64,000 nucleotides of DNA from the NCBI GenBank assembly GCA_015999985.1, contig JAECRA010000018.1:1-64000 (forward strand), written 5' to 3'. The position numbers and the translations under genes were made by a program. A model generated the notes under the pieces. It saw only the letters and a program-made list of their open reading frames with translations, had not been told where the DNA came from and made no database searches. The stretch comes from Comamonadaceae bacterium. Its GTDB lineage: Bacteria > Pseudomonadota > Gammaproteobacteria > Burkholderiales > Burkholderiaceae_C. Positions 13,254-29,806 of this stretch are shown here, piece after piece. Each line of letters begins with the position of its first letter. Positions within the stretch are counted from its first letter, which is position 1.

Positions 13254-14405
13254 TCACATCCTCCCCAAAACCATGGAGCAATGCCCCGAAAAAATGCCGC
13301 CTAGCGTGTGAGCAAAGGCCACTTCAGCGTCCTTGACCTGGCGCTGCCCAGCATCGCGGCGCAACTGGAGTACCGCTTCGACGACGTGGCTCATGCCACC
13401 GGCTGCACCGGAGGAGCCGTAAGACAGCAGACCGCCATTGCTATTGACTGGAAAGCGCCCCTTGATCGCCAGATCGCCGGCTAGCGCGGCGGGGCCGGCT
13501 TCTCCGCGCTCGAAGAAGCCCATTGATTCCAGGCAGATCAGAAGCGTGCTTGTGAAGCAGTCGTAGATGTGCGCCGTATCGACGTCGGATGGTTTCAGAC
13601 CGGCCTTGCCTAGGGCGATCGCAGTAGATTCCTTGCAACCAAAATCCATCAATGATGGGGACGCGAAGATGTGCTCGTGTGTGTGTCCTTCTCCGATGCC
13701 CAGAATTTGCACTGCCGTCTTCGGCAGGTCACGCGCTGCGTCGGCCGCGCTGACCACCACCGCCGATCCGCCGTCAGACACCAGGCAGCAATCGAGCATG
13801 CGCAAGGGTGAGGCGACCATCTTGGAGTTCTTTACGTCCTCATGAGTGATTGGCTTTTTCATGTGCGCATTTGGATGCAAGGCCGCGTTGGCGCGCTGGT
13901 TTACTGCGACCGCGGCCATGTGCTCATGCGTCATGCCAAATTCGTGCATGTAGTACTGCGCAGCCTGCGCGAACGCAGCGGGCACGCTCATTCCGTAGGG
14001 TTGTTCGTACTGGGGGTGGCCGACATTGGCAAGCGCTGCTTGTACCTTCTCGCCCATGCCTGTAAGGCGGTTGTCTCCAGTAACGCACAGTACGTGGCGA
14101 CACATGCCCGACTCCACCAAGGCTACGGCCTGCGCGACCATCAAACCGGCCGTAACCCCGCCCATCGAGATGGACGAGCACACCTTCGGCTGCATGCCCA
14201 CGTATTCTGCGAATACGTTGCCAAGCATGAGTTGCGGTGAGGTGAAGGAGTAGGCTGTCAACAAACCGTCTACTTCGGAGACTTGAAGACCTGCGTCCTC
14301 AATGGCTCCGAGCCCGGCTTCGGTGTGCAGTGTCATGCACGAACTCTCGGGGAGCGATCCGATGAGGGTGTCGTATACCCCGCTGATAATGGCTTTTCTG
14401 GTCAT
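13254..14405 (-). CDS. Thiolase-superfamily protein, probably acyl-CoA aldolase/Ltp2-like
   Basis: A 383-residue thiolase-fold protein. The ATG at 14405 is chosen over one at 14471 that would overlap the next gene. The segment where thiolases carry their nucleophile (C-A-S-G) reads GGVTAG at 82-87 with no cysteine, and the GHP motif near the C-terminus is replaced by GGLLSYGSSG at 324-333. Y281 in YDCFT and Y329 are candidates for the tyrosines used by Ltp2-type retro-aldolases; that assignment is inference. With the adjacent DUF35 and two MaoC genes the set matches the aldolytic side-chain cleavage module known from steroid catabolism. A plain thiolase function is less likely but not excluded. 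Confidence 0.78.
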   Translation of the reverse strand: MTRKAIISGVYDTLIGSLPESSCMTLHTEAGLGAIEDAGLQVSEVDGLLTAYSFTSPQLMLGNVFAEYVGMQPKVCSSISMGGVTAGLMVAQAVALVESGMCRHVLCVTGDNRLTGMGEKVQAALANVGHPQYEQPYGMSVPAAFAQAAQYYMHEFGMTHEHMAAVAVNQRANAALHPNAHMKKPITHEDVKNSKMVASPLRMLDCCLVSDGGSAVVVSAADAARDLPKTAVQILGIGEGHTHEHIFASPSLMDFGCKESTAIALGKAGLKPSDVDTAHIYDCFTSTLLICLESMGFFERGEAGPAALAGDLAIKGRFPVNSNGGLLSYGSSGAAGGMSHVVEAVLQLRRDAGQRQVKDAEVAFAHTLGGIFSGHCSMVLGRM

Positions 14406-14467
14406 TGTGTCCTTGGGCGTGCCGGGAAAGTAATGGTTCTGCTCGGGTGCATGCGGAGCGCGCTCAA

Positions 14468-15625
14468 TCAAAGGCCGAGCTCGCGCGCGAGGATGTCGCG
14501 CTGTATTTCCATGGCGCCACCGCCAATCTCGAACACTGGTGCGTCGCTCATGTGCATCGGCATACCCGATTCAAGGCAATAGCCGTAGCCGCCCATCAGA
14601 TGCTGGCCTGTGTAGGCGCAGTGCATAAACGTTTCGGCACCGGAAATCTTCGCGAATGAAGCCTCCCTGTGGCAGTGGCCAGTCGTGGCCAGCACAGCCG
14701 CACCGCGGTACGTGAACATTCGCGCGGCTTCCACCCGCATCTGCATGTCCACGATTTTGTGGCGTACCGATTGGAGCTTTCCTAAAGGTTTGCCGAACTG
14801 TTCGCGTTGTTTCACGTGAGCAATGACGTCATCGATGATGCCTTGCGCAGCGCCGACGCCAATGGCGCCGTGATAGAGCCGTTCGAGATCGAGCCCACGC
14901 AGCATTTGCTGCCAACCCTGGTTCTCGACGCCGATCAGCGCGGCCGCTGGCAGACGCAGGTCCGTGATCGAAAGAGAGTAGGTCGGTGCGAGCTGCATAC
15001 CCATCGTGTCCAACCTGCGGCACTCGATAGCCGGATTGGCCGCAGGCTTCTCAATGAGGAACAACGAAATGCCGTGCTGCTTGATGGCATCGGGATCGGT
15101 GCGTGCGCACAGAACGAGGAAATCGGCCCCCCCTGCCTGCGTGCAGTAGAGCTTGGATCCATTGATGAGCCAGGATCCGTCCAACTGCTGAACAGCTCGC
15201 GTTTTTAGGGACGACGCATCCGATCCAGCTTCGGATTCCGTCAGCGCCATAGACATGTAAGCCTCACCGGCGACTACCTTGGGCAACACCAGTTCCTGCT
15301 GCTCAGGGGTTCCAAATTTTGCGATCAGCGGGCCGAGGATGACCCCTGATCGTCCGTAAATCGTCGTTAAGGAAGAAGAGGCGCGGGCCAATTGCTCGAC
15401 AAAAGTGAGCATTCCCATCGGGTCAATATTGTCCTGGCCGCCGTACTTCGATGGCATGAGAAAGTTGTACATGCCCATCTCTCCGAGCTTTCGGAACAGA
15501 GAGCGCGGTGGCTCGACCCGGTCTTTCACCCACTCGAGGATTTTGGTTCTGGGTAATTCTTTCCTAACAAACCGCGCAGCGGTGTCCTGGATGGCTATTT
15601 GCTCTTCGCTCAGTTCGAAATCCAT
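14468..15625 (-). CDS. Acyl-CoA dehydrogenase (first gene of the operon)
   Basis: A 385-residue FAD acyl-CoA dehydrogenase starting MDFELSEEQIAIQDTAARF. The SMALTESEAGSDAS segment marks the middle domain and the C-terminal PVFEIGGGAMEIQRDIL holds a glutamate in the usual catalytic area. It shares only family-level likeness with the dehydrogenase at 6710-7876, so the two probably act on different intermediates. It is the promoter-proximal gene of the minus-strand operon: the putative TetR operator at 15694-15711 lies 69 bp upstream of its start. A 62-bp gap separates it from the thiolase-like gene. Confidence 0.9.
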   Translation of the reverse strand: MDFELSEEQIAIQDTAARFVRKELPRTKILEWVKDRVEPPRSLFRKLGEMGMYNFLMPSKYGGQDNIDPMGMLTFVEQLARASSSLTTIYGRSGVILGPLIAKFGTPEQQELVLPKVVAGEAYMSMALTESEAGSDASSLKTRAVQQLDGSWLINGSKLYCTQAGGADFLVLCARTDPDAIKQHGISLFLIEKPAANPAIECRRLDTMGMQLAPTYSLSITDLRLPAAALIGVENQGWQQMLRGLDLERLYHGAIGVGAAQGIIDDVIAHVKQREQFGKPLGKLQSVRHKIVDMQMRVEAARMFTYRGAAVLATTGHCHREASFAKISGAETFMHCAYTGQHLMGGYGYCLESGMPMHMSDAPVFEIGGGAMEIQRDILARELGL

Positions 15626-15693
15626 ATTTTTGCCTTTGCCCCGTCACGGACGAGGGTTCGATGTGTGCTCCGGCAGTCGGTTTATTTTGATGC

Positions 15694-15711
15694 ATACCCG
15701 GTAGTATTATC
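15694..15711. promoter_or_regulatory. Putative TetR operator and promoter of the 14-gene operon
   Basis: The 18-mer ATACCCGGTAGTATTATC contains an imperfect inverted repeat ATACC-CGGT-AGTAT. The same site with one difference occurs ahead of the crotonase gene at 16691-16708. On the minus strand it begins GATAATACT, so a -10-like GATAAT overlaps the operator, which fits repression. No good -35 hexamer is visible. The intergenic space 15626-15894 holds nothing else I can identify. Confidence 0.6.
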
Positions 15712-15894
15712 ATAAAGGGGGCACGGTATTTAATGTTCTCGGGTTTACCCGAGTAGAGGGAGCAGAGTGGCTTTTTTTATACCGAAGGTATGCTCGGCCT
15801 CGGTGCGCCGGTGTCGTGTCATAGGTGAGCTCTCCGCCAGCGCTGACAGGAGCCCATGCGCTAGGGGCAGATGAGGAAAACGCACCTCACTTTC

Positions 15895-16668
15895 CTAGGA
15901 AGCCACCGGACGTTGACTGCTTTGCCCATATGCTCTTCGCAAGGACTCATCTAACGTGAGCCCCGCGACGCTTACGAATAAACGTTTGGTTTCACGCAGT
16001 ACGCTCCGCTGGTGCGCCGCAAGTTGATTTGCTAGTCCCATGGCTGTATCGAGCACCCGTGAATCAGGCACCACGTGGTTGACGAGCCCGCGTGCTAAAG
16101 ATTGATCTGCTTGACAGGACGTACCAGAGGCAAGCATTTCATATGCAAATTTGCGGCTGGTGCGATGCTGCAAGTGACTGATTACCAGACTGGGAACCAT
16201 GCCGCGTGCGATCTCGGGGTAGCCGATTTGGGCACTTTCCCCCATCACGCTGAGATCGGCCGACACCGCGATTGCACCCCCTAAGCCGGCTGCCATGCCG
16301 GTGATCGCTGCGATCACGGTGACGTCTAGGTCTCCAAAGAGCTGCAACAATTCCAGCATGGCTAGATCACGTTGTTGTTGGGCTATCGGGTTGGTGAGTT
16401 CGCCCTCAAACTCCTTCAGATCGGCGCCTGCACAAAATGCAGGCCCGTTACCGGCAAGGACAACAGCATGTACCGTCGAGTCGCTATCGGCGGCTTTCAA
16501 TGCGGCAGCCAATGCGCTCGTTAAAGCGGTATCGAGAGCGTTTCGGCGCTCAGGGCGATTCAGCGTCAGCACGCGCACTTGGCCGTGCTCTGCGATATGC
16601 AGCGTGGTTGACGACGCAGTTTGCGTGATGGAGGTGTCAGGGTAGGTGACTGCCGAACGGACATTCAT
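15895..16668 (-). CDS. Enoyl-CoA hydratase/isomerase family protein
   Basis: A 257-residue crotonase with a roughly 20-residue leader before the fold starts at TLHIAEHGQVRVLTLNRPERRNALD. The oxyanion-hole segments FCAGAD (78-83) and MAAGLGGAIAVSAD (125-138) are present. Glu152 in YPEIARGMVP keeps the second catalytic glutamate of hydratases; the first aligns with Ala132. A methylglutaconyl- or branched enoyl-CoA hydratase is a fair guess. It is a separate transcription unit 269 bp upstream of the big operon, with its own copy of the operator 23 bp before the start codon, so it should be co-regulated. Its start codon has no strong ribosome site. Confidence 0.85.
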   Translation of the reverse strand: MNVRSAVTYPDTSITQTASSTTLHIAEHGQVRVLTLNRPERRNALDTALTSALAAALKAADSDSTVHAVVLAGNGPAFCAGADLKEFEGELTNPIAQQQRDLAMLELLQLFGDLDVTVIAAITGMAAGLGGAIAVSADLSVMGESAQIGYPEIARGMVPSLVISHLQHRTSRKFAYEMLASGTSCQADQSLARGLVNHVVPDSRVLDTAMGLANQLAAHQRSVLRETKRLFVSVAGLTLDESLRRAYGQSSQRPVAS

Positions 16669-17376: not shown

Positions 17377-18276
17377 TCAGGGGGGGGCTGCACCACCCGC
17401 GACGATAGCCGCAGCCGCGCTGCGTGTTTCGACCCCCAGTTTGGCAAAGACGTGCTCGAGATGTTTGTTGACGGTGCGCGGGCTCATCACCAGAATGTCG
17501 CCGATGTCGCGGTTGGTCTTGCCTTTGGCCAGCCAGGCCAGCACTTCGGTTTCGCGCGGGGTCAGCGACGCGCGGCGAAGCCTCTCGGCGGCGGGGTTGT
17601 CATCTGCAGCAGGAGTCAGAAGCAGCATGGATTCGCCCGGGTTGCTTTGTCCCATATGCCGTGCCAACAGGCGAGCGCGTGGTCCTTGCCCGCCCCTGGC
17701 TTCCCCATGCGTCAGGGCTTGCTTCAACCAGTTCAGTGTGTCTGCATCTGCCAGGTCACCTAACCAGTCACGAGCCTGGGGAGAGCACCAAGCCACGCGG
17801 CCATGGGAGTCGAGCATGACGCTGCCCATGCCAGCAACATCGACCGCGTCACGCGCCAGCCTGGCCACTTTGGCATTGCGCACGTGTGTTGCTAGGCGGG
17901 CCATGACCTCCGGTAACCGCAGTGGCTTGACGACGTAGTCAACGCCGCCGCTGGCAAAGCCCTGGAGGATTTGCTCGGTTTCCGACAAGCCGGTCATGAA
18001 CAGAACCGGTATATGCGCCCAAGCCGGGGTGGCCTTGATCTGAGAGCACAGCGAGAAGCCATCTCCGTCGGGCAGGATGCCGTCCATCAAAATGCCATCT
18101 GGCACGGTGATCGCAAGCCTGTCCAGCGCCTCCGCAACATCTCGCGCCGCGAGCACGTCGTAGCCTTCTAGTGTCAGCGCTTCGCAAAGCATATTCAGGG
18201 TGGGCAGTGAGTCCTCAACGACCAGGATCACGGGCATGGCAGTCGGAAGCGGCAGGTCAGGTGCGCCTTCAGTCAT
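17377..18276 (-). CDS. LuxR-type response regulator (REC - PAS-like - HTH)
   Basis: A 299-residue response regulator. The receiver domain spans about 15-130 (VILVVEDS acidic pocket, phosphoacceptor Asp in GILMDGILP, Lys in DYVVKPL). A short PAS-like segment around 145-175 (MGSVMLDSHGRVAWCSPQARDWL) follows. The LuxR helix-turn-helix occupies about 232-295 (LTPRETEVLAWLAKGKTNRDIGDIL, then SPRTVNKHLEHVFAKLGVETR). Its start overlaps the end of the kinase gene by 8 bp, so the two form a pair. Being next to and divergent from urtA-amiE, it is the likely activator of that operon; this is inference from position. The C-terminus is alanine-rich. Confidence 0.9.
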   Translation of the reverse strand: MTEGAPDLPLPTAMPVILVVEDSLPTLNMLCEALTLEGYDVLAARDVAEALDRLAITVPDGILMDGILPDGDGFSLCSQIKATPAWAHIPVLFMTGLSETEQILQGFASGGVDYVVKPLRLPEVMARLATHVRNAKVARLARDAVDVAGMGSVMLDSHGRVAWCSPQARDWLGDLADADTLNWLKQALTHGEARGGQGPRARLLARHMGQSNPGESMLLLTPAADDNPAAERLRRASLTPRETEVLAWLAKGKTNRDIGDILVMSPRTVNKHLEHVFAKLGVETRSAAAAIVAGGAAPP

Positions 18277-21200
18277 TTGTTTGTCTCTGAGAAAGTTTGA
18301 GCGTACTCATGAGGCCATCGAAATCGAATCTGTCCAGGCAGGCCAGCAAGGCTGCCAGCGTGCTTGCTTCGGCCGGAAGTGTGCTGGCGGCTTCGCGCAG
18401 GCGTTCACGCAAAGCCGGTGCCCGGCCCTGGCGGGCCATGCGCATCAGGTCTTCGTGCAGTTCCAGGGGCAGTGGAGCTAGCGCAAGTTCGGCATCTGCT
18501 GTCAAAGCTGCGGCGGTCATTGCGGGTTCGGCCCGTATCCACTGCAGCTTGAGTACGTTTTCCAGTGTGTCCAGTAGCTCGGTCTCCAGCACCGGCTTGG
18601 CTACAAATCCCTGGCAGAGAGCTTGCCTGATCTTGTCGCTTTGGTTGTCGATCATGTTGGCCGAAACGAAGACCACAGGCAGTTGGGACGCATCCAGTCG
18701 ATCGCGCACCTGACGTGCAGTTTCCCAGCCATCCCATCCATCCATGGAGATATCGAGCAGCAGCAGATCGGGAAGCTTCTGTTCCAGAATCTCCACACAC
18801 TCTTCACCACTGGCCGCTTCAATCACATTGAAACCCAGTGGAACCAGCAGGGCCGCCAGCAACTGCCGGTGCAGTGGCTGATCGTCTACCACCAAAAGCG
18901 TGCGGCGCGGACCCTCATACCCGGTCACAGGCCGCAGGCTGTGAGCCGCACGTTTGAGATGCGCGGGGTCAGGCACGGCCCGAGGCAGGTAGAGCCGCAG
19001 CGAGAACACGCTGCCTTCACCAGGTTTGCTGCGCAGCGAGATCTCCCCTCCCATCATCTGCGTGATCAAAAGGGTGATGGTCAATCCCAGGCCAGTGCCC
19101 GTTTCGGCCGCGCGGCGGCCGGCAGAACCACGCTCGAACGGGAGAAAGATGCGCTGCTGATCCTGCTCCGCGATGCCAATCCCGGTATCTGCCACTTCAA
19201 TGCGGGTCACCTGTTGTGTGAAATCCATCCTAAGCGTGACTTCCCCTTGGGGCGTGAAGCGGATGGCGTTGCCAATCAGGTTGATCAAAAGCTGGCGCAG
19301 ACGCTTGGCGTCGGTGCGAATCCAATCGGGGCGGTCGCCCTCAATGGCAATAAGGAATCGAAGTCCCTTGGCCTCGGCCTGTGGGCGCACCATGCGTTCC
19401 ACATCTTCAATGAGTGGGCCCAGCGGTAAGGGTGCCAAGTCCAGTTTCAACCTGCTGGCCTCGATCCTGGCAAGGTCCAGAGCATCGTCAATCAGCGCAT
19501 GCATATGTTGGCCACTGCGTTGCATGGTGGCCAAGGTGTCACGCACTGCGCCGGCTACGAGCGGGTTTTTGATCAGCAGTTCGGTATAGCCCATGATGCT
19601 GGTAAGCGGCGTGCGCAGCTCGTGCGTCATGCCGGCGACATAGCGGGTCTTGGCCAGATTGGCTGCTTCGGCGCGGTCGCGCGCGGACTGCAGTTCAGCG
19701 TCGGTTCGGCGGTGCGCGTCGATCTCTTTGAGCAGCAGTTGAGTTTGGCGTTCCGACTCATCCTGCGCCATTCTCCGACTGTCATTGGTCAGCACAATCC
19801 ACCAGGCGCTGACGGCGGCCAGCGCAGCCAGCAGGGCAAAAACCTTGAGGAACGGCCATTGCAACTGCGCGACATCACCTTGCGCGCTTTCCTGGGCATA
19901 CACCAGGCCAAACAGAAAGGCCATGGTGGCGCTCAGGGTGATAAAGACCATGAGGTAGTGGCCGAGCCGGAAGTTCACACGAGCAGCCAAGCGATCCGGC
20001 AGCAGCAGGTGCAGCCAACTGCGTATCTGATCTGATCCCCTGGAATTGGTCTTGCAGCGGTCGTGGCAGCGTGACTCCAGAGAGCAACACAGTGAGCAAA
20101 TAGCGCCCCCAAAGGCTGGGCAGCTCGCCATGTCTTCAGATTCAAACTGGTTGTTGCACACCACGCAGTTCACTGACTCTCCAGGCGCCCATTGGTCCTG
20201 CGGCTGGCGCGCCAGATAGTATCGCCCCCCCGTCAGCGCCGCCAGCAATGGAGAAAGCGCCATGGCGAGACCCAGGGCAATGAAGGGTGAAAACGCCTGC
20301 GCCACTTCTCCCATCAGTCCAGCATAGGCCATGCTGGAGACGGCAGCGGCGACCACCATGGAGCCAATGCCTACCGGGTTGAAGTCATAGAGATAGGCGC
20401 GGCGAAACTCGATCCCGCGCGGGCTCAGGCCCAAGGGCTTGTTGATGACAAGATCTGCCACCAGAGCACCCACCCAGGCGATGGCTACGTTGCTGTAGAC
20501 GCTAAGCACTTTTTCAAGACCGCTGAAGACGCCAAGCAGCATGAGCAGGGTGGCAATAGCGACGTTGAATACCAGCCACACCACGCGGCCAGGGTGGCTG
20601 CGTGTGACGCGGGCAAAGAAGTTGGACCAGGCCAATGAACCGGCGTAAGCGTTGGTCAGATTGATCTTGATCTGCGAGATGATCACAAACACCACCGTCA
20701 CCGCAACGGCCAGTACGGGCATGGACAGCGACTGCGTAAAGCCGGCCAGGTACATCTGCGTCGGCTCAATGGCGTGTTGGGGCGCCACGCCAAGCTGCAT
20801 GGCGGCGAATGCGAGGAAGGCCCCGCCAGCCATTCTCAGCATGCCCATGACTATCCAGCCAGGTCCGCTGACCAGTACTGCACCCCACCAGCGCCAACGG
20901 TTCTCGCGCGTCTTCTCAGGCAGGAAGCGCAAAAAATCAACCTGCTCGCCGATCTGAACCACCAGCGCAAAGATGACTGTGGTGGCAGCGCCGAAGAGCA
21001 GTGGCGAGAATTCGCTGGAGCCTGATTTCAGGCCTTTGAGGCTGGCGAAATCAGTGAACATCTGCGGTTGCGAGAGCGCTATCCAGATGAACGGAAAGAC
21101 CAGCAGAAACAGCCAGACAGGTTGTGTCCAGGCTTGCAGTTTGCTGATCAAGGTAATTCCGCGAATGGCCAGAGGCACCACCACCAAGGCCGAAACCAAA

Positions 21201-21757
21201 TAGCAAACCGGCAATGACCAACCTGTCGCCATCTGCACGGCGAGCGCCATGATGACGGCCTCCAATGCAAAAAATATGAAGGTAAATACGGCGTAGATCA
21301 GAGATGTGATGGTCGAGCCGAGATAGCCGAAGCCCGCACCGCGCGTGAGCAGGTCCATGTCCAGGCCGTACCGCGCAGCGTAATAGGCGATGGGCAGTCC
21401 AGTGAAGAAAATCACCAGGCCCACCACCAGAATCGCCCACATGGCGTTGGCAAAGCCGTAGTTGATGGCAATGGCACCGCCTATGGCTTCCAGGGCCAGG
21501 AAGGACAGCGAACCAAACGCGGTGTTGGCTACGCGCCACTCGCTCCACTTGCGAAAGGAGCGTGGCGTGTAGCGCAGCGCGTAGTCCTCCATCGTCTCAT
21601 CAGCCACCCAGGAGTTGTACTCCCGCCGGGAAGCGGAGATCTGCTGCGGAACGATGGGGATGGTGCGAGCAATCCGGTTCATGGGGCTCAGGGGGCGACC
21701 TGCGTGCGAGTGGCTTTCATGGGGCCTGGCACCAAGGCGGTGCATGGGTGAGTGCAT
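18269..21757 (-). CDS. NCS1-type permease fused to hybrid histidine kinase/receiver (transporter-coupled sensor)
   Basis: A 1162-residue fusion. Residues about 40-515 form an NCS1 purine/cytosine/allantoin-type permease with many membrane segments. Residues 531-568 carry eight cysteines (C531, C534, C546, C554, C557, C558, C564, C568), a likely metal or redox module. Two more membrane segments at about 600-622 and 636-656 lead into a kinase with His712 (GMTHELRTPL), N-box Asn830, DTGIG at 857-861 and GTGLGL at 887-892. A receiver follows with Asp958/959, phosphoacceptor Asp1002 and Lys1054, then a helical tail. Domain logic resembles CbrA and PutP-fused kinases, where transport and sensing are coupled. 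An alternative start is ATG 21682; the ribosome site does not decide. It lies divergent from the amide operon. Confidence 0.9.
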   Translation of the reverse strand: MHSPMHRLGARPHESHSHAGRPLSPMNRIARTIPIVPQQISASRREYNSWVADETMEDYALRYTPRSFRKWSEWRVANTAFGSLSFLALEAIGGAIAINYGFANAMWAILVVGLVIFFTGLPIAYYAARYGLDMDLLTRGAGFGYLGSTITSLIYAVFTFIFFALEAVIMALAVQMATGWSLPVCYLVSALVVVPLAIRGITLISKLQAWTQPVWLFLLVFPFIWIALSQPQMFTDFASLKGLKSGSSEFSPLLFGAATTVIFALVVQIGEQVDFLRFLPEKTRENRWRWWGAVLVSGPGWIVMGMLRMAGGAFLAFAAMQLGVAPQHAIEPTQMYLAGFTQSLSMPVLAVAVTVVFVIISQIKINLTNAYAGSLAWSNFFARVTRSHPGRVVWLVFNVAIATLLMLLGVFSGLEKVLSVYSNVAIAWVGALVADLVINKPLGLSPRGIEFRRAYLYDFNPVGIGSMVVAAAVSSMAYAGLMGEVAQAFSPFIALGLAMALSPLLAALTGGRYYLARQPQDQWAPGESVNCVVCNNQFESEDMASCPAFGGAICSLCCSLESRCHDRCKTNSRGSDQIRSWLHLLLPDRLAARVNFRLGHYLMVFITLSATMAFLFGLVYAQESAQGDVAQLQWPFLKVFALLAALAAVSAWWIVLTNDSRRMAQDESERQTQLLLKEIDAHRRTDAELQSARDRAEAANLAKTRYVAGMTHELRTPLTSIMGYTELLIKNPLVAGAVRDTLATMQRSGQHMHALIDDALDLARIEASRLKLDLAPLPLGPLIEDVERMVRPQAEAKGLRFLIAIEGDRPDWIRTDAKRLRQLLINLIGNAIRFTPQGEVTLRMDFTQQVTRIEVADTGIGIAEQDQQRIFLPFERGSAGRRAAETGTGLGLTITLLITQMMGGEISLRSKPGEGSVFSLRLYLPRAVPDPAHLKRAAHSLRPVTGYEGPRRTLLVVDDQPLHRQLLAALLVPLGFNVIEAASGEECVEILEQKLPDLLLLDISMDGWDGWETARQVRDRLDASQLPVVFVSANMIDNQSDKIRQALCQGFVAKPVLETELLDTLENVLKLQWIRAEPAMTAAALTADAELALAPLPLELHEDLMRMARQGRAPALRERLREAASTLPAEASTLAALLACLDRFDFDGLMSTLKLSQRQTND

Positions 21758-21945
21758 GCACGCTCAAAGTGCGCACGGTGTTGGTGCCACCACGTCCCTG
21801 GAAAGTGCATGAGGCAGTGAGCCGCAAGAATCATTCCAGCGCCGGCTTACGTTGTTTGACGTATGGGCACGAATGCGGGTCAACCCTAATCTAGCGGCAA
21901 GTCGGCATGAGGCCGATTTCCTTAACCAGCCCTAGGAGTCCATCC

Positions 21946-23214
21946 ATGAAAAAGTCCTCTCCCGAGTCCGACCGGTCTCTACTTGAGACGCCCGCAGCCA
22001 GCCGCCGCCGCATTCTCAAGACCATGGGCGCTGCAGGCCTGGCAGGTTTGCCGGCATGGAGCTTTGGCCAGCCAACCGCCTCGGTCAACACCACCAAGTT
22101 GGCAGTCACCGATAGCGAAGTGACTGTGGGCATCCTGCATTCATCCACCGGGACCATGGCCATTTCCGAGACAGGCTCCATCCAGGCGGAGCAACTGGCC
22201 ATTGACCAGATCAATGCCGCTGGGGGCATTCTGGGCCGCAAGATCAAGGTCATCAAGGAAGATGGCGCCTCCGACTGGCCCACGTTCGCGGAAAAGAGCA
22301 AGAAATTGCTCATCAACGACCGCTGCGCCGCCATCTTCGGTTGCTGGACATCCGCCTCACGCAAGGCCGTGCTTCCGATTTTCGAAAAAGAAAACGGCTT
22401 GCTGTACTACCCCACGTTCTACGAAGGCCTGGAGCAGTCGAAGAATGTGATCTACACCGGCCAGGAAGCGACGCAGCAGATTCTGTACAGCCTCGACTGG
22501 GCCAAGAAAGACAAAGGCGCCAAGTCCTTTTTCCTCATTGGTTCGGACTACATCTGGCCACGCACATCGATGAAGATTGCGCGCAAGCACATCGAGAACT
22601 TCCAGAAGGGCAAGGTTGTTGGCGAAGAGTATTACCCGTTGAGCGCCACCAACTTCGGATCGCTGGTCAACAAGATCAAGCTGCAGAAACCAGACTGCAT
22701 TTTCTGTGCAGTGGTGGGCGGCTCCAACGTGGCCTTCTACAAGGCGCTCAAAGCCGCAGGCCTCACAGGCGACAAGCAACTGCTGGTGACGCTGTCTGTG
22801 ACGGAAGACGAAATGACCGGTGTGGGTGGTGAGAACTTCAAGGGCTTCTACTCGTCCATGAAGTACTTCCAGACTCTGGACAACGAGAACAACAAGAAGT
22901 TCGTCGCTGCGTTCAAAGCCAAGTACGGCCCTAACGCCGTCATTGGTGATGTGACGCAGGCTGCTTACCTCGGCCCTTGGCTGTGGAAAGCGGCAGTCGA
23001 GAAAGCCAAGAGCTTCGATGTGACCAAAGTGGCGGCAGCTTCGCCGGGCATAGAGCTCAAGACTGCGCCGGAGGGCTACGTCAAGGTTGACGCGAACCAC
23101 CATCTGTGGAGCAAATCACGCATTGCTCAGGGACAGGCCGATGGCACCTTCAAGGTGGTTTCTGAATCTCCGGACCTGATCAAGCCCGATCCGTTTCCAA
23201 AGGGCTATCAGTGA
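21946..23214 (+). CDS. urtA: Urea/short-chain amide ABC transporter substrate-binding protein
   Basis: A 422-residue periplasmic binding protein of the UrtA/FmdD/AmiC family. The start at 21946 is chosen because AGGAG lies at 21934-21938. A Tat-like signal (SRRRILKTMGAAGLAGLPAW) is present. The mature part opens with EVTVGILHSSTGTMAISET and contains FGCWTSASRKAVLPIFE, typical of the urea/amide branch. In the cell it captures urea or short amides and delivers them to UrtBCDE. It is the first gene of the operon that includes two amidases and no urease genes, so amides are the more likely ligands here. The 188-bp divergent space upstream has no clear sigma-70 or sigma-54 promoter I would defend. 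Confidence 0.9.
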   Translation: MKKSSPESDRSLLETPAASRRRILKTMGAAGLAGLPAWSFGQPTASVNTTKLAVTDSEVTVGILHSSTGTMAISETGSIQAEQLAIDQINAAGGILGRKIKVIKEDGASDWPTFAEKSKKLLINDRCAAIFGCWTSASRKAVLPIFEKENGLLYYPTFYEGLEQSKNVIYTGQEATQQILYSLDWAKKDKGAKSFFLIGSDYIWPRTSMKIARKHIENFQKGKVVGEEYYPLSATNFGSLVNKIKLQKPDCIFCAVVGGSNVAFYKALKAAGLTGDKQLLVTLSVTEDEMTGVGGENFKGFYSSMKYFQTLDNENNKKFVAAFKAKYGPNAVIGDVTQAAYLGPWLWKAAVEKAKSFDVTKVAAASPGIELKTAPEGYVKVDANHHLWSKSRIAQGQADGTFKVVSESPDLIKPDPFPKGYQ

Positions 23215-23301: not shown

Positions 23302-23360
23302 TACCTTGATACCTGAGTTTCTGCTTTCTTCGCTTGTTTCTTTTCCTCTGGAGTTGCACC

Positions 23361-24275
23361 ATGGCTTTCAACGACATGCTCAACATCGGTCTGATGCAGG
23401 GTTTTGCGGGCTTGAGCCTGTTCGCCGTGCTGTTGCTCATGGGCCTGGGCCTGGCCATCATCTTCGGACAGATGGGCGTCATCAATATGGCCCATGGCGA
23501 GTTCATGACCATCGGGGCTTACACGATTTTCCTGGGTTCCACACTGGCAGAAGCGGTGGGCGGCACCGCGACGTCCTGGTACTTCCCGCTCGCCATCCTC
23601 GCTGCTTTTGTGTTCGCATTCATAGCCGGATGGCTGCTCGAATGGGCGCTTATCCAACATCTCTATCAACGCCCGCTTGACACGCTTTTGGCCACCTGGG
23701 GTGTCAGCCTGGCCTTGCAGCAGACATTTCGTACTTTCATCGGTCCGAAGGAAGTCAGCCCTACGCTGCCCGAATGGTTGATGGGGTCCTGGGCGCCCGC
23801 AGAAGGTCTGGACATTCCGATCAACGGCATGTTTGTGCTTGCCCTCACATCGGTGGTCACCGTGACGGTCTTGTTGGCGCTCTACAAGAGCCGCTGGGGC
23901 CTGCGGGTTCGTGCCACCGTGGCTAATCGTGGCATGGCCAACGCCATTGGCATCAACACCCAGAAGACTGACCGGCTGACGTTTGCTATTGGTTGCGGTA
24001 TTGCCGGTGTGGCCGGAGCAGCTTTCACCACCATTGGATCTACAGGCCCGACCTCTGGCTCACTCTACATCGTGGACTCCTTCCTCGTGGTCACTTTCGG
24101 TGGCGCGGCCAGCTTGCTGGGGACCGTCATCTCGGCATTCGGGATCGCCCAGACGCAGTCGATCTCGGAGTTCTTCATGGGCGGCTCCATGGCCAAGGTG
24201 CTCACGCTTTCCGTCATCGTTGTGATCCTGATGTTCCGTCCACAGGGTTTGTTCGCCAGCAAGATTCGCCGCTGA
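23361..24275 (+). CDS. urtB: Urea/amide ABC transporter permease UrtB
   Basis: A 304-residue branched-chain-amino-acid/urea type inner-membrane permease (LivH family). The ATG at 23361 has GGAG upstream at 23350-23353. The typical segment GLGLAIIFGQMGVINMAHGEFMTIGAY is visible, as are many hydrophobic helices and a conserved EAA-like loop near the C-terminus before LTLSVIVVILMFRPQGLFA. Homology to UrtB is clear from the overall pattern and the neighbours. It forms the channel with UrtC. Confidence 0.92.
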   Translation: MAFNDMLNIGLMQGFAGLSLFAVLLLMGLGLAIIFGQMGVINMAHGEFMTIGAYTIFLGSTLAEAVGGTATSWYFPLAILAAFVFAFIAGWLLEWALIQHLYQRPLDTLLATWGVSLALQQTFRTFIGPKEVSPTLPEWLMGSWAPAEGLDIPINGMFVLALTSVVTVTVLLALYKSRWGLRVRATVANRGMANAIGINTQKTDRLTFAIGCGIAGVAGAAFTTIGSTGPTSGSLYIVDSFLVVTFGGAASLLGTVISAFGIAQTQSISEFFMGGSMAKVLTLSVIVVILMFRPQGLFASKIRR

Positions 24276-24293: not shown

Positions 24294-25469
24294 ATGAACA
24301 CCTTAAAAGCCTGGGTCACCCGATATCAACTCGGAAGCCTCCTCATCCTGACCGTTTTGCTGGTGGTGGTGCTGCCACTTTCGCTGGATATCTTCCGCCT
24401 CAACCTGGTCGGCAAATACCTGACCTATGCATTTGTCGCCATCGGCCTGGTCATGCTCTGGGGTTATGGGGGCGTGCTCAGTCTGGGGCAAGGCGTCTTC
24501 TTCGGCCTGGGCGGTTATGCCATGGCCATGTTCCTGAAGCTGGAAGCTTCGGACCCGGAGAGCACCAAGATCCAGTCCACGCCAGGCATTCCTGACTTCA
24601 TGGACTGGAACCAGCTCACCGAACTGCCCACGTTCTGGCTGCCCTTCAAGAGCTTGCCCTTTGCGCTGGCTGCGGTGATCGTGATTCCTACCGTGCTGGC
24701 CTTTATCGTCAGCTTTGCGATGTTCAAACGGCGCGTGGGCGGCGTGTACTTTGCCATCATCACGCAAGCGGTGGCCTTGATTCTGACGGTGCTCATCATT
24801 GGCCAGCAAGGCTACACCGGCGGAGTGAACGGTATGACCGATCTGAAAACGCTGCTGGGCTGGGATGTTCGGACCGATAGTGCCAAGTACATCCTCTACT
24901 TTGTCTGCGTTGGGCTGCTGCTGGCGTCCATCGTTCTGTGCCGCTGGATTCAAACCAGCAAGCTGGGGACGCTGCTGCTGGCCATGCGCGACAAGGAAGA
25001 CCGTGTGCGGTTTTCCGGCTACGACGTAGCGAGCTTCCGGATCTTCGCCTTCTGCCTGGCAGCCGCTCTATCAGGCATTGGCGGGGCCATGTTCACGCTG
25101 CAAGTGGGTTTCATGTCTCCCAGCTTTGTGGGCATCGTGCCGTCTATTGAAATGGTCATCTTCGCAGCGGTCGGCGGGCGCATGAGCCTGGTGGGCGCCG
25201 TGTACGGCGCGCTGCTGGTGAACTGGGGCAAAACCTATTTCTCCGAGACCTTCCCTGACATGTGGTTGTTCCTCGTGGCGGCGCTGTTCATCGGCGTGAC
25301 CATGGCGTTTCCAATGGGCCTTGCAGGACTCTGGGCCGACAAGATTGTTCCATGGTGGAAGTCGCGCCGCACCAGCGTCTCCAAAGTGGACAGTGCTCCG
25401 CCCAAAGCCAAGCCTGCGTCTTTGACGCAAGACCCTGAAACGCCGGCATCGTCCATCCCAGCCGCTTGA
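24294..25469 (+). CDS. urtC: Urea/amide ABC transporter permease UrtC
   Basis: A 391-residue LivM-type permease. Hydrophobic helices start at about residue 14, and GYGGVLSLGQGVFFGLGGYAMAM is the family hallmark. The insertion around residues 82-120 (KLEASDPESTKIQ to LPTFWLPF) is characteristic of UrtC relative to LivM. The C-terminal 30 residues are a Pro/Ser/Lys-rich cytosolic tail. It follows urtB by 18 bp and pairs with it in the membrane. Confidence 0.92.
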   Translation: MNTLKAWVTRYQLGSLLILTVLLVVVLPLSLDIFRLNLVGKYLTYAFVAIGLVMLWGYGGVLSLGQGVFFGLGGYAMAMFLKLEASDPESTKIQSTPGIPDFMDWNQLTELPTFWLPFKSLPFALAAVIVIPTVLAFIVSFAMFKRRVGGVYFAIITQAVALILTVLIIGQQGYTGGVNGMTDLKTLLGWDVRTDSAKYILYFVCVGLLLASIVLCRWIQTSKLGTLLLAMRDKEDRVRFSGYDVASFRIFAFCLAAALSGIGGAMFTLQVGFMSPSFVGIVPSIEMVIFAAVGGRMSLVGAVYGALLVNWGKTYFSETFPDMWLFLVAALFIGVTMAFPMGLAGLWADKIVPWWKSRRTSVSKVDSAPPKAKPASLTQDPETPASSIPAA

Positions 25470-25507: not shown

Positions 25508-26251
25508 ATGGGCAATATCGATTTCGCACTGACGGTCGAGGATCTGACCGTCTCCTTTGACGGCTTCAAGGCCATAGACAACCTTGCGCTCTACATCGAC
25601 AAGAACGAGCTGCGAGTGATCATTGGCCCTAACGGTGCCGGCAAGACGACGCTTCTGGATCTGATTTGCGGCAAGACGCGTGCGAGCGCCGGCAGCATCA
25701 AGTTCAAGGACGAAGAAATCATCGGCTTGCCTGAGCACGTGCGCGTGCGTCGTGGCATTGGCCGCAAGTTCCAGACGCCTTCCATCTACGAGAACCTCTC
25801 GGTGTTTCAGAACCTGGAGGTGTCCTATCCCTCTGGCCGTTCCGTGTTCGGCGCGTTGGCATTCAAGTGCACGCAGGAGGTGCGCTCGCGCATCGATGCA
25901 GTGGCCGCCGAGATAGGCATGTCCGACAAGCTGGACACGGAAGCTGGTTTGCTCTCGCATGGACAGAAGCAGTGGCTCGAAATTGGCATGCTGCTGATGC
26001 AGGAGCCCGAGCTGCTGATGCTCGATGAGCCCATCGCGGGTATGAGCGCCAAGGAGCGTGACCTCACGGCCGAGCTGCTGCACCGCATCTGCAAGAACCG
26101 GTCAGTGATCGTGATTGAACACGACATGGACTTTGTCAAGAAGATCGCTCACAAGGTGACGGTGATGCACCAAGGAAAGATTCTTGCAGAAGGCTCCATG
26201 GAAAAAGTCCAGGCCGATCCCAAGGTCGTCGATGTCTACCTGGGTCACTGA
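25508..26251 (+). CDS. urtD: Urea/amide ABC transporter ATP-binding protein UrtD
   Basis: A 247-residue ABC ATPase of the LivG/UrtD group. Walker A GPNGAGKTT is near 40-48, the signature motif reads LSHGQKQWLEIGM and Walker B is LLMLDEP. The stretch RGIGRKFQTPSIYENLSVFQN is UrtD-like. It powers uptake through UrtBC with UrtE. The start has AGGA upstream (gaggatcgaaaa). Confidence 0.93.
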   Translation: MGNIDFALTVEDLTVSFDGFKAIDNLALYIDKNELRVIIGPNGAGKTTLLDLICGKTRASAGSIKFKDEEIIGLPEHVRVRRGIGRKFQTPSIYENLSVFQNLEVSYPSGRSVFGALAFKCTQEVRSRIDAVAAEIGMSDKLDTEAGLLSHGQKQWLEIGMLLMQEPELLMLDEPIAGMSAKERDLTAELLHRICKNRSVIVIEHDMDFVKKIAHKVTVMHQGKILAEGSMEKVQADPKVVDVYLGH

Positions 26252-26275: not shown

Positions 26276-26965
26276 ATGCTGAAAGTCAAGGATCTGTTCG
26301 TAGCCTATGGTCAAAGCGAGGCACTGCACGGTATCTCGTTCGACGCACAGGCCAATGAGACGGTCGCCATCATGGGACGCAATGGCATGGGCAAGACCAC
26401 CTTGTTCAAAAGCCTCATGGGTGTCTTGCCCATCAAGACAGGCCAGGTCACTGTGGGGGGGCAGGATGTCTCCAAGGACCCGGCCTTCCGCCGCGTCGCC
26501 AAGGGGATTGCCTATGTGCCGCAGGGCCGCATGATTTTCCCTACGCTGACAGTGACGGAAAACATCCAGACGGGCCTGGAGAACGCCAAGGACAAGTCTA
26601 TCCCGGATGAGATCTATGCGCTCTTTCCGGTGCTGTGGGACATGCGCGGTCGCAAGGGGGGCAATCTCTCGGGCGGTCAACAGCAGCAGTTGGCCATCGC
26701 GCGCGCGCTGGTCACCAACCCCAAAGTCCTCCTGCTGGACGAGCCGACGGAAGGCATTCAGCCCTCCATCATCAAAGACATCGCCCGCGCGCTCAATGAG
26801 ATTCGCAAGATGCGCAAGCTGACCATCGTGGTGTCCGAGCAGGTGCTCTCATTTGCCATGGACGTGGCCGATCGCCTGTTCGTGATCGAAGGCGGACGCC
26901 TTGTGCACGAAACAGCCCGAGCGGACACCGACCAGGCACGCATCAAGTCTTATCTCTCTGTTTGA
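26276..26965 (+). CDS. urtE: Urea/amide ABC transporter ATP-binding protein UrtE
   Basis: A 229-residue ABC ATPase of the LivF/UrtE group. Walker A is GRNGMGKTT (37-45), the signature is LSGGQQQQLAIARAL and Walker B is VLLLDEPTEG. It partners UrtD. The gene starts 24 bp after urtD with a GGGAG ribosome site. The end is followed by a 77-bp gap before fmdA. Confidence 0.93.
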   Translation: MLKVKDLFVAYGQSEALHGISFDAQANETVAIMGRNGMGKTTLFKSLMGVLPIKTGQVTVGGQDVSKDPAFRRVAKGIAYVPQGRMIFPTLTVTENIQTGLENAKDKSIPDEIYALFPVLWDMRGRKGGNLSGGQQQQLAIARALVTNPKVLLLDEPTEGIQPSIIKDIARALNEIRKMRKLTIVVSEQVLSFAMDVADRLFVIEGGRLVHETARADTDQARIKSYLSV

Positions 26966-27042
26966 TTTTCTCAGTTAGCGGCCTTTCCAAGAAGAAAAGC
27001 TTGGAGCCCTCTTTATTTCCAGCCAACCACAAGGAGCACGTC

Positions 27043-28266
27043 ATGGCAGAAACCCTCGTCAAGGTCGATCTTTCTCAACCCGCCACCACCAACGAAAAAG
27101 TTCACAACCGTTGGCACCCGGACATTCCCATGGCTTGCTGGGTCAACCCCGGTGACGATTTCATTCTCGAAACCTACGACTGGACGGGCGGGTTCATCAA
27201 GAACAACGACAGCGCCGATGACGTCCGTGACGTCGACCTGACCACGGTGCACTACCTCTCCGGCCCTGTGGGTGTCAAAGGCGCTGAGCCAGGAGATCTG
27301 CTGGTGGTGGAACTGCTGGACATCGGTGCCAAGCAAGAAAGCCAGTGGGGTTTCAACGGGTTCTTCTCGCAGAAAAATGGCGGTGGTTTCCTGACCGATC
27401 ACTTCCCCTTGGCGCAAAAATCCATCTGGGATTTTGAGGGCATGTTCACCAAGTCGCGGCACATCCCAGGTGTGCGTTACGCGGGTTTGATTCACCCCGG
27501 TTTGATCGGTACGCTGCCCGATCCCAAGATGCTGGAAAACTGGAATACCCGTGAGCAAAAGCTCATTGACACCAACCCCACCGGCAACCTGGCCAACCCC
27601 CCCTTCGCGGGCACTGCCCACATGGGTTCCCTGAAGGGTGAAGCACGCGACAAGGCTGCAGCCACAGGCGCGCGCACGGTACCTCCACGCGAACACGGTG
27701 GCAACTGCGACATCAAGGATCTCTCGCGCGGCTCCAAGGTGTTTTTCCCGGTCTACGTGGATGGCGCCGGTCTGTCTGTAGGTGACCTGCACTTCAGCCA
27801 GGGCGATGGTGAGATCACTTTCTGCGGCGCCATTGAGATGGCCGGATGGGTGCACATGAAAGTGCAGATCATCAAGGGCGGCATGGCCATGTACGGCATC
27901 AAGAACCCGATCTTCAAGCCCAGCATCATCGCGCCTGCCTACAACGACTACGTGATCTTCGAAGGCATCAGCGTCGACGAAAGCGGAAAGCAGTACTACC
28001 TTGATGTCAATGTGGCCTACAAGCAAGCCTGCTTGAACGCCATCGAATACCTGAAGAAGTTTGGCTATTCCGGTGCGCAGGCGTACTCCATTCTGGGTAC
28101 GGCTCCGGTGCAAGGGCATATCAGCGGGGTGGTCGACGTGCCCAATGCCTGCGCCACGCTGTGGCTTCCGACGCAGATCTTCGACTTCGACATCAACCCC
28201 AACGCCTCGGGTCCGATCAAGCACATCGATGGCAGCATCGATATGCCCATCTCTCAAGACAAGTAA
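27043..28266 (+). CDS. fmdA: Formamidase (acetamidase/formamidase family)
   Basis: A 407-residue cytosolic amidase, the same length as the formamidase FmdA of Methylophilus methylotrophus. The ATG at 27043 has AAGGAG at 27031-27036. The family pattern is clear: HNRWHPDIPMACWVNPGD, the LSGPVGVKGAEPGDLL segment and the GGNCDIKDLSRGSKVFFPV block. These enzymes are metal-dependent and hydrolyse formamide, and sometimes other short amides, to ammonia and the acid. It lies after the ABC transporter and directly before fmdB, the arrangement known for fmd clusters. Expression is probably nitrogen or amide controlled through the divergent sensor pair. Confidence 0.94.
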   Translation: MAETLVKVDLSQPATTNEKVHNRWHPDIPMACWVNPGDDFILETYDWTGGFIKNNDSADDVRDVDLTTVHYLSGPVGVKGAEPGDLLVVELLDIGAKQESQWGFNGFFSQKNGGGFLTDHFPLAQKSIWDFEGMFTKSRHIPGVRYAGLIHPGLIGTLPDPKMLENWNTREQKLIDTNPTGNLANPPFAGTAHMGSLKGEARDKAAATGARTVPPREHGGNCDIKDLSRGSKVFFPVYVDGAGLSVGDLHFSQGDGEITFCGAIEMAGWVHMKVQIIKGGMAMYGIKNPIFKPSIIAPAYNDYVIFEGISVDESGKQYYLDVNVAYKQACLNAIEYLKKFGYSGAQAYSILGTAPVQGHISGVVDVPNACATLWLPTQIFDFDINPNASGPIKHIDGSIDMPISQDK

Positions 28267-28276
28267 AGGAGCCGTC

Positions 28277-28636
28277 ATGCCAACCTACGACTATGCATGT
28301 GATGACTGCGGCGAATTCGATGCGATTCGCAGGCTGGCAGATCGCAACGAGCCTTGTGACTGTCCGTGGTGCGGTACCGCTTCGCGGCGCGTCATGTCGC
28401 AGGCCCCGGCCCTGGCGTGCACCACACCGCAGCAACGCCGTGCGGTGGAGCTCAACGAGCGATCGCGGCATGCGCCGCGTTCCTCGCGCGATGTCGACCC
28501 CGGAAATTATGGGCGCTTGCGGCACCCCAGTGGTTGCGGTTGCTGCGGCACCAAGACCAAAGCCAAGGCCACTCCGACGGAGCAGCCAGCCATGAAAGCT
28601 CAGGTTGGCCGGCGCCCCTGGATGATCAGTCATTAA
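28277..28636 (+). CDS. fmdB: FmdB family zinc-ribbon protein
   Basis: A 119-residue small protein. The first 40 residues form an FmdB/CxxC zinc ribbon (YDYACDDCGEFD and PCDCPWCG). The remainder is basic and low in structure, with a second Cys cluster SGCGCCG near residue 96. The ATG at 28277 follows fmdA by 10 bp with AAAGGAG at 28265-28271. FmdB proteins were first proposed to regulate fmd genes, but the role remains unproved. Confidence 0.9.
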   Translation: MPTYDYACDDCGEFDAIRRLADRNEPCDCPWCGTASRRVMSQAPALACTTPQQRRAVELNERSRHAPRSSRDVDPGNYGRLRHPSGCGCCGTKTKAKATPTEQPAMKAQVGRRPWMISH

Positions 28637-28743: not shown

Positions 28744-29781
28744 ATGATTCACGGCGATATTTCAAGCAGTGACGACACAGTAGGTGTGGCCGTCGTCAAC
28801 TACAAGATGCCACGCCTGCATAACAAGGCGGAAGTACTGGCCAACGCCCACAAGATTGCCGACATGCTGATCGGCATGAAACGGGGTCTGCCGGGCATGG
28901 ATCTCGTGATTTTCCCGGAGTACAGCACCCAGGGCATCATGTACGACTCGCAAGAGATGTACGACACTGCGGCCTGTATTCCCGGCGACGAAACCGAGAT
29001 CTTTTCAGCGGCCTGCCGTAAGGCGAAAGTCTGGGGTGTGTTCTCTCTGACTGGAGAGCGCCATGAAGAGCATCCCAACAAGGCGCCTTACAACACACTC
29101 ATCTTGATGAACGACCAGGGTGAGATCGTGCAGAAGTACCGCAAGATCATGCCCTGGGTGCCGATCGAAGGTTGGTATCCCGGCAACTGCACCTATGTGA
29201 GCGAAGGCCCCAAGGGGCTGAAGGTCAGCCTCATCATTTGCGACGACGGCAACTACCCCGAGATCTGGCGTGATTGCGCCATGAAAGGCGCTGAACTCAT
29301 CGTGCGCTGCCAAGGCTATATGTATCCCGCCAAGGAGCAGCAGATCCTGATCAGCAAAGCCATGGCGTTTGCCAACAACACCTATGTGGCGGTGGCCAAT
29401 GCGGCGGGCTTCGATGGTGTCTACAGCTATTTTGGCCACAGTGCGCTCATCGGCTTTGACGGTAGAACGCTGGGCGAGTGTGGCGAGGAAGAATATGGCG
29501 TGCAGTACGCAGCGCTATCCAAAAGCCTCATTCGGGACTTCCGCAAGAACGGGCAGAGCGAGAACCACTTGTTCAAGCTGGTGCACCGAGGCTATACCGG
29601 CATGATCAACTCGGGCGATGGCGTTCAAGGCGAAGCCAACTGCCCGTATGACTTCTACGCCAGATGGATCAATGACCCCGAGGGCACGCGCAAATCCGTG
29701 GAGGCTTTCACGCGCAGTACCGTGGGCACGCCAGAGTGCCCCATCGAAGGCATCCCGAATCAGGCGCCTGAGCATCGTTGA
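28744..29781 (+). CDS. amiE: Aliphatic amidase
   Basis: A 345-residue nitrilase-superfamily amidase, nearly full-length collinear with Pseudomonas AmiE (346 residues), opening [22 protein letters not shown]. The catalytic triad positions are Glu59 (FPEYS), Lys134 (QKYRK) and Cys166 ([16 protein letters not shown]), exactly as in AmiE. It hydrolyses short aliphatic amides such as acetamide and propionamide to acids and ammonia, in the cytosol. The gene lies 107 bp after fmdB; the gap holds a weak GC hairpin. A second amidase beside FmdA widens the range of amides that the transporter-fed pathway could use. Confidence 0.96.
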
Positions 29782-29806
29782 GGTTTTAGCTATCTGGGAG
29801 AGGAAA

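Follow-up and report, generated by a model that had tools for sequence, protein, structure and literature searches.

In this study, a 64,000-nucleotide stretch of DNA (hereafter the window; contig JAECRA010000018.1 of assembly GCA_015999985.1, Comamonadaceae bacterium) was analyzed around a gene for a permease-fused sensor kinase. The sensor is encoded by a single intact open frame on the minus strand. It overlaps by 8 bases the gene for a LuxR/GerE-type response regulator, which is the probable output of the sensor. Divergent from these two genes is a urtABCDE-fmdAB-amiE run (Table 1); the identities of UrtA to UrtE, FmdA and the aliphatic amidase were backed by NCBIfam models, fmdB not being among them. 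The open reading frames and NCBIfam matches agree with an earlier note on this DNA, made from the sequence alone, in which the sensor and its regulator were described as divergent from urea/amide transporter and amidase genes.

Table 1. Features of the sensor locus (positions are those of the window; residues are those of the sensor frame)
Feature	Position	Strand	Basis or remark
LuxR/GerE-type response regulator	17377-18276	-	PF00072 and PF00196
Sensor ORF	18269-21757	-	1162 aa; probable start 21682, 1137 aa
Receiver domain, phospho-acceptor D1002	18563-18895	-	PF00072; Asp in 55/57 rows, 2 gaps
HATPase_c domain	18986-19312	-	PF02518
HisKA domain, phospho-acceptor H712	19457-19654	-	PF00512; His in 57/57 rows
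Two further long helices, residues 596-682	19712-19972	-	Secondary structure of the model
Eight-cysteine module, residues 528-570	20048-20176	-	Alignments and model; predicted short strands and helix, treble-clef-like
NCS1-like permease part, residues 26-520	20198-21682	-	AlphaFold2 model, best PDB matches Mhp1 and CodB; relative matching PF02133
Probable operator TACGTT-GTTT-GACGTA	21848-21863	.	Between sensor and urtA; consensus TACGTY-N4-RACGTA
urtA	21946-23214	+	TIGR03407; ORF opens at 21907, start 21946 inferred from preceding AGGAG
urtB	23334-24275	+	TIGR03409
urtC	24294-25469	+	TIGR03408
urtD	25508-26251	+	TIGR03411
urtE	26276-26965	+	TIGR03410
fmdA, formamidase	26962-28266	+	NF045496
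fmdB-like protein	28277-28636	+	ORF, start from frame; homologues beside fmdA; name from annotated relative
amiE, aliphatic amidase	28744-29781	+	NF009802

Two further groups of genes flank the locus. After amiE, an AAA ATPase and, behind it, a further protein that we take to be its VWA-type partner are encoded at positions 29618-32174; homologues of the ATPase are likewise found after amiE in relatives and in Arthrobacter (L225, L228, L229, and L234), and the ATPase and its partner are perhaps needed for amidase maturation. On the other side, adjoining the regulator, translations read by eye for positions 13254-16668 were thiolase-like, acyl-CoA dehydrogenase-like, and enoyl-CoA hydratase-like.

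The true start of the sensor is probably base 21682 (residue 26), because residues 1-25 are poorly conserved and a Met occupies the residue-26 column in 53 of 79 homologues. In the C-terminal part, the HisKA, HATPase, and receiver domains all scored above the Pfam cut-offs, and the catalytic residues of a hybrid kinase are kept (H712, N830, and D857 in 57/57 rows; D1002 in 55/57, with 2 gaps). Residues 596-682 are taken as TM13, TM14, and a signalling helix, on the topology suggested by the model. Open frame, Pfam domains, and fold model agree with the earlier description of one chain comprising permease, cysteines, two helices, histidine kinase, and receiver. The Pfam search at E ≤ 0.1 showed no sensor domain of the PAS, HAMP, or any other type; the signal therefore most likely enters by one of three routes, namely the permease, the cysteine module, or the pair of extra helices. 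The same Pfam search gave no SLC5 match, and no STAC linker was among its matches.

The permease part itself had no Pfam match at E ≤ 0.1. The family PF02133 did not match the window even at E ≤ 10, at which the sole match was Prok-RING_1 (E = 6.6), lying over the cysteines. When the permease or a 24-row profile (E ≤ 0.1) was searched against PDB sequences, no transporter chain was returned; only the fold search succeeded. A model of residues 26-705, built from 57 sequences (mean pLDDT 81, pTM 0.81), had as its best solved-structure matches in Foldseek the NCS1 transporters Mhp1 and CodB (2jln, E = 5.7e-11, TMt 0.66; 7qoa, TMt 0.76-0.79); SLC5 proteins, which belong to the same superfamily, ranked lower. 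Furthermore, a 552-residue single-domain relative, 28-30% identical, matched PF02133 at 3.6e-9. Because of these two results, the modelled fold is assigned to NCS1, a fold which does not fix the substrate; the CodB alignment on which sodium and substrate sites might be mapped was weak (probability 21%). The NCS1 part of the earlier label "NCS1-type nucleobase/allantoin permease" is thus retained on the model, whereas nucleobase/allantoin derives from the fold label alone, and six of nine relatives favour urea or amides (see below).

The eight cysteines between C531 and C568 were counted as in the earlier note (residues 531, 534, 546, 554, 557, 558, 564, and 568). All eight are invariant in 81/81 rows of one alignment and 57/57 of another, both including the window and overlapping in some genomes, and the pattern is therefore not due to chance; they are also present in all 6 fusions from plasmid-collection records. 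Free variation of these residues, which the earlier note had considered, is excluded for the aligned fusions. In nine single-domain relatives of the permease, read by eye in the alignment, the number of these cysteines kept is one, four, five, or eight: C531 alone in two Arthrobacter permeases and that of Tsukamurella; C531, C534, C554, and C557 in two Acinetobacter permeases and those of Klebsiella and Moraxella; these four and C546 in Streptomyces; and all eight in Methylovirgula. As judged from these alignments, the cluster corresponds, in a more complete form, to the tail of these permeases. The module described in the earlier note is real and conserved, but it is not confined to the fusion.

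The module was also modelled by itself (91 residues; pLDDT 74, pTM 0.52), which gave short strands with a helix. In Foldseek, RING, IBR/RBR, PHD, or FYVE appeared in the titles of at least 26 of the 50 matches listed, no match being significant (best E = 0.34), and profile searches for RING or treble-clef families gave no significant match either (Prok-RING_1, E = 0.093; a FYVE chain, E = 0.14). On the model, the module is likely a metal-binding treble clef. Cysteines 531, 534, 554, and 557, the set of the single-domain form, may make up one site and 546, 558, 564, and 568 a second one in the fusions. Assignment to Prok-RING_1 was also tried; a search of 200 genomes gave scattered matches, none above the family cut-off, and the module was therefore not placed in that family.

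Genomic linkage was assessed in 398 evenly drawn Pseudomonadota genomes. Some match to the sensor was found in 60 of them, and 52 were counted as sensor genomes after eight were dropped, seven because they matched other permeases weakly and one (G236) because its match was a fragment. These supplied 56 sensor loci from 51 of the 52 genomes, the window's own being omitted and two distant permeases (L175 and L176) excluded. Genes for urtA/B, fmdA, amiE, or urease were present in 54 of the 56 loci; the other two are cut by contig ends. The case allowed for in the earlier note, that homologues are never near amide genes, is contradicted by these loci. Formamidase FmdA (NF045496), counted at E ≤ 1e-100 with all matches over the curated cut-off, occurred in 40 of the 398 genomes, and 39 of these 40 also have the sensor, the exception being G114 (one-sided Fisher test for the 52 sensor and 40 FmdA genomes, 1.4e-41, relatedness ignored). 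In a second set, the 80 best-matching loci, from Burkholderiales wherever a genus is named, urtA was found in 74, fmdA in 56, and amiE in 38; the six loci lacking a urea or amide gene are 3.8 to 13 kb long, with the sensor near a contig end. The sensor of Ottowia thiooxydans DSM 14619 is 93% identical across the 634 residues used as query. Eight UrtA proteins of low identity were checked, and all matched TIGR03407. Among six sensors read in plasmid-collection records, two had no urt, fmdA, amiE, or urease gene nearby; none of these genes was found within 12 kb on each side of the Azospirillum lipoferum sensor or within 9 kb on each side of that of Acinetobacter baumannii. The link of the sensor to amide/urea nitrogen genes, which had been proposed earlier, is well supported by these neighbourhoods, by the co-occurrence with FmdA, and by the candidate operator before urtA and amiE described below.

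Several variants were observed in the course of these comparisons. A second subgroup of sensors in the window's family adjoins urease genes (L146, L151, L164, L169, L140, and L166). In L162 (7502-10183) and L163 (7666-10362), where the gene adjoins fmdA, the permease and eight-cysteine part is joined to another type of kinase, and the proteins (about 895 aa) end with no receiver; the ORF following that of L162 carries a receiver and an HATPase. One sensor gene (G444:C1:1577378-1580631) contains internal stop codons and is apparently decaying. Klebsiella accounted for 342 of the 531 matching records in the plasmid collection, and CP024483.1 (L207), one of the records, is a conjugative plasmid of the IncFIB/IncFII type that encodes the sensor and its regulator along with urtABCDE and amiF.

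An inverted repeat, TACGTY-N4-RACGTA, is the probable operator of the regulator, and binding of the regulator to its copy in the window is suggested by position, symmetry, and co-occurrence. Of 76 upstream regions, that of the window among them, 69 matched at least 10 of its 12 positions, a level reached by 17 of 1520 base shuffles, none of which reached 11. Six of the seven non-matching regions have a full site elsewhere in the locus, at 54 to 101 bases from a displaced urtA in five (L019, L020, L022, L032, and L078) and with urtA off the contig in L027; L041 has an imperfect site alone. The copy in the window is the only match in the 4.34-Mb assembly (79% complete). Among 150 genomes of the family, the exact site was present in 29 of 31 in which the amide-type sensor is intact (at least 62% identity; G475 and G481 are without the site) vs 4 of 119 others, G444 with its stop codons being counted among the latter. 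In 27 of the 29 genomes, the distance between site and sensor match is 77 to 375 bases, and none of the four sites in genomes without an amide-type sensor is beside an amide gene. A reversed control pattern was commoner, occurring in many of the 150 genomes as composition predicts; it is therefore the placement of the sites that counts and not their rarity.

Eleven extra sites were examined in the genomes with an amide-type sensor, nine before amiE, one before another urtA, and one before a porin gene; three further sites (G479, G472, and G526) fall outside these 11. The nine amiE sites are 63 to 114 bases before the AmiE match, the copies of G472 and G207 being on a contig other than that of the sensor. 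The copy at L231:5043-5058 lies directly before a porin gene (PF13609). In the 56 phylum loci, the site was present in 21, with a full match in 16, and it also lies between sensor and urtA on Burkholderia vietnamiensis and Klebsiella plasmids. In the loci of two groups from another class of the phylum (family codes f48 and f38, respectively), a related repeat, TACGC-N6-GCGTA, occurred in 6/8 and 5/6 and ATACG-N8-CGTAT in 8/8 and 4/6, as counts with no shuffle control. No operator repeat was found among the loci of the urease-linked sensors.

The nine single-domain relatives (44-56% identical) were a non-random choice among the plasmid-collection matches listed. Urease, fmdA, or amiE adjoins six of them (Tsukamurella, Acinetobacter NEB149, Klebsiella, Moraxella, Methylovirgula, and Arthrobacter U41), which is the main reason for predicting urea or short amides as the ligand; the other three (Streptomyces, Arthrobacter NicSoilB11, and A. 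baumannii) have no such neighbour. The gene order in Methylovirgula is fmdA, sensor, regulator, permease, amiE. In A. baumannii the single-domain copy is divergent from the sensor, with no urease, formamidase, or amidase gene nearby. These comparisons suggest that the sensor probably descended from a urea/amide permease. Sensors and the nine permeases differ at near-fixed positions that include three in TM1, F86/Y, L89/D, and E90/F: L89 was found in 143 and E90 in all of 149 sensor rows, vs D89 in 9/9 and F90 in 8/9 permeases (151 sensor rows were compared, some genomes being represented twice). From the alignment, these residues are candidates for the changes that turned a transporter into a sensor. 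In a tree of permease domains, the nine formed one group (99 SH-aLRT) near L162 and L163; this tree came from a short search with no bootstrap and has a very long outgroup branch, so that the root and the order of fusion and separation are not fixed. A Klebsiella pneumoniae gene annotated as cytosine permease behind ureG (L220:5971-7578) can be placed in this permease group and may encode a permease for urea.

We consider it reasonably likely that the locus encodes a two-component system devoted to the use of urea and short-chain amides as nitrogen sources, in which occupancy of the permease part leads to induction of urtABCDE-fmdAB-amiE. The N-terminal NCS1-fold part, derived from a urea/amide permease, would bind the nutrient from outside. 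The resulting conformational change would be transmitted by the eight-cysteine module on the cytoplasmic side, probably a treble clef that is stabilised by metal and packed on the permease, and the two extra membrane helices would relay it to the kinase. Phosphate would then reach the LuxR-type regulator, which would bind TACGTY-N4-RACGTA and turn on the urtABCDE-fmdAB-amiE run and, elsewhere, separate amiE, urt, and porin genes. The comparisons establish the architecture, its conservation, the genomic linkage, the co-occurrence, and the conserved site, whereas we infer the ligand, signalling by occupancy, metal binding, site binding by this regulator, activation over repression, and what is said of transport. 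In CbrA of Pseudomonas, signal perception is reported not to require the transporter domain (available text of PMC9100948), and therefore the permease part here might likewise not be the sensor.

The protein could also be a true transceptor that takes up urea and amides itself, with flux and not occupancy driving the kinase. The permease part is complete and has many invariant positions in common with the single-domain relatives, and CbrA is reported to transport histidine (available text of PMC13022988). However, the near-fixed TM1 residues L89/E90 of the sensors are replaced by D89/F90 in the permeases, a urea-type ABC system is already encoded in the window, and Ks-Amt5 is described as having lost transport on becoming a sensor (available text of PMC5764959); uptake by the sensor is accordingly regarded as unlikely.

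It is very improbable that the cysteine module is the input, with zinc, nickel, or redox state gating amide use. All eight cysteines are invariant in the aligned fusions, and urease, a nickel enzyme, neighbours one sensor subgroup; on the other side, metal biology leaves the linkage to aliphatic amidase unexplained. Sensing of metal or redox state by the cysteines was the weakest part of the earlier note, and a structural metal site is likelier because the permease tail persists with one cysteine (Arthrobacter and Tsukamurella), four, five, or eight. Least probable of all is that the permease part senses activity of the neighbouring ABC transporter and not the nutrient, in the manner of BceS, which works with BceAB (available text of PMC11109136). 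Such a role would suit the very tight linkage to urtABCDE, but for the sensors of L146, L151, L162, L163, L164, and L169, which adjoin urease or fmdA, the stretch read showed no urt-type match of at least 34% identity, and the single-domain relatives point to direct recognition. The preferred reading remains that of an occupancy-driven sensor of urea and short amides.

A wider scenario may be put forward tentatively, and we regard it as possible with somewhat less than an even chance. An unrecognised family of NCS1-like urea/short-amide permeases would have given rise, by duplication and a TM1 swap (D89-F90 vs L89-E90), to a non-transporting receptor joined to kinases via a metal-binding treble clef. 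Receptor and permease would coexist, even side by side, and with one operator would constitute an amide-nitrogen regulon across much of Pseudomonadota, also carried on conjugative plasmids. The analysis provides a candidate sensor, operator, and regulon for use of urea and formamide, and a probable urea/amide permease group with members that currently carry the annotation cytosine permease, allantoin permease, or hypothetical protein. How a transporter is converted into a receptor, and whether occupancy or flux drives the fused kinase, are questions posed for CbrA (available text of PMC13022988). They are directly testable here, since sensors and single-domain permeases coexist and differ at few near-fixed sites, and the likely ligands are inexpensive small molecules.

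In the literature searched, which left subscription journals mostly outside, no description was found of the fusion or of this transporter class, linker, and regulon together. The 2009 Dechloromonas genome paper lists a 1131-aa histidine kinase with receiver beside urtA, with no comment in the available text (PMC2907700). In Methylophilus methylotrophus, the fmd cluster is described as carrying genes for formamidase, for uptake of amides and urea, and for a porin, with formamide and urea as inducers and ammonia as repressor (PMC10781810); a porin gene in the regulon is a likeness to the present system, one genome here having a porin gene behind the operator, and the available text of that report does not mention a transporter-kinase sensor.

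Sensors made of a transporter and a kinase are a known kind. Mhp1 and CodB resemble the window sensor in the predicted N-terminal fold; unlike them, it has no PDB sequence match (24-row profile, E ≤ 0.1), is linked to urea/amide genes, and is fused to a kinase. CbrA, the histidine sensor, likewise combines a LeuT-fold transporter and a histidine kinase in one chain; it differs in being described as SLC5-STAC-PAS-kinase, with the sigma-54 type regulator CbrB and no cysteine module in the available text (PMC13022988). Ks-Amt5 is a nitrogen transporter recruited as a sensor and joined to a kinase, as proposed here, but it has the Amt fold, ammonium as ligand, and, in the available text, DHp and CA domains alone (PMC5764959). 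CrbS/CrbR for acetate and RpuS/RpuR for pyruvate are reported as SLC5/STAC hybrid kinases with a LuxR-type regulator, CrbR requiring an imperfect inverted repeat before its targets (available text of PMC5715377 and PMC9100948). They share with the window system the fusion of a transporter domain to a hybrid histidine kinase and the LuxR-type regulator, whereas the window sensor is NCS1-like and not SLC5, has an eight-cysteine and two-helix linker with no PAS domain detected, and has neighbours and an operator that point to urea/amide genes. In its proposed working, the sensor is closest to CrbS/R, RpuS/R, and Ks-Amt5, from which it differs in transporter fold and linker.
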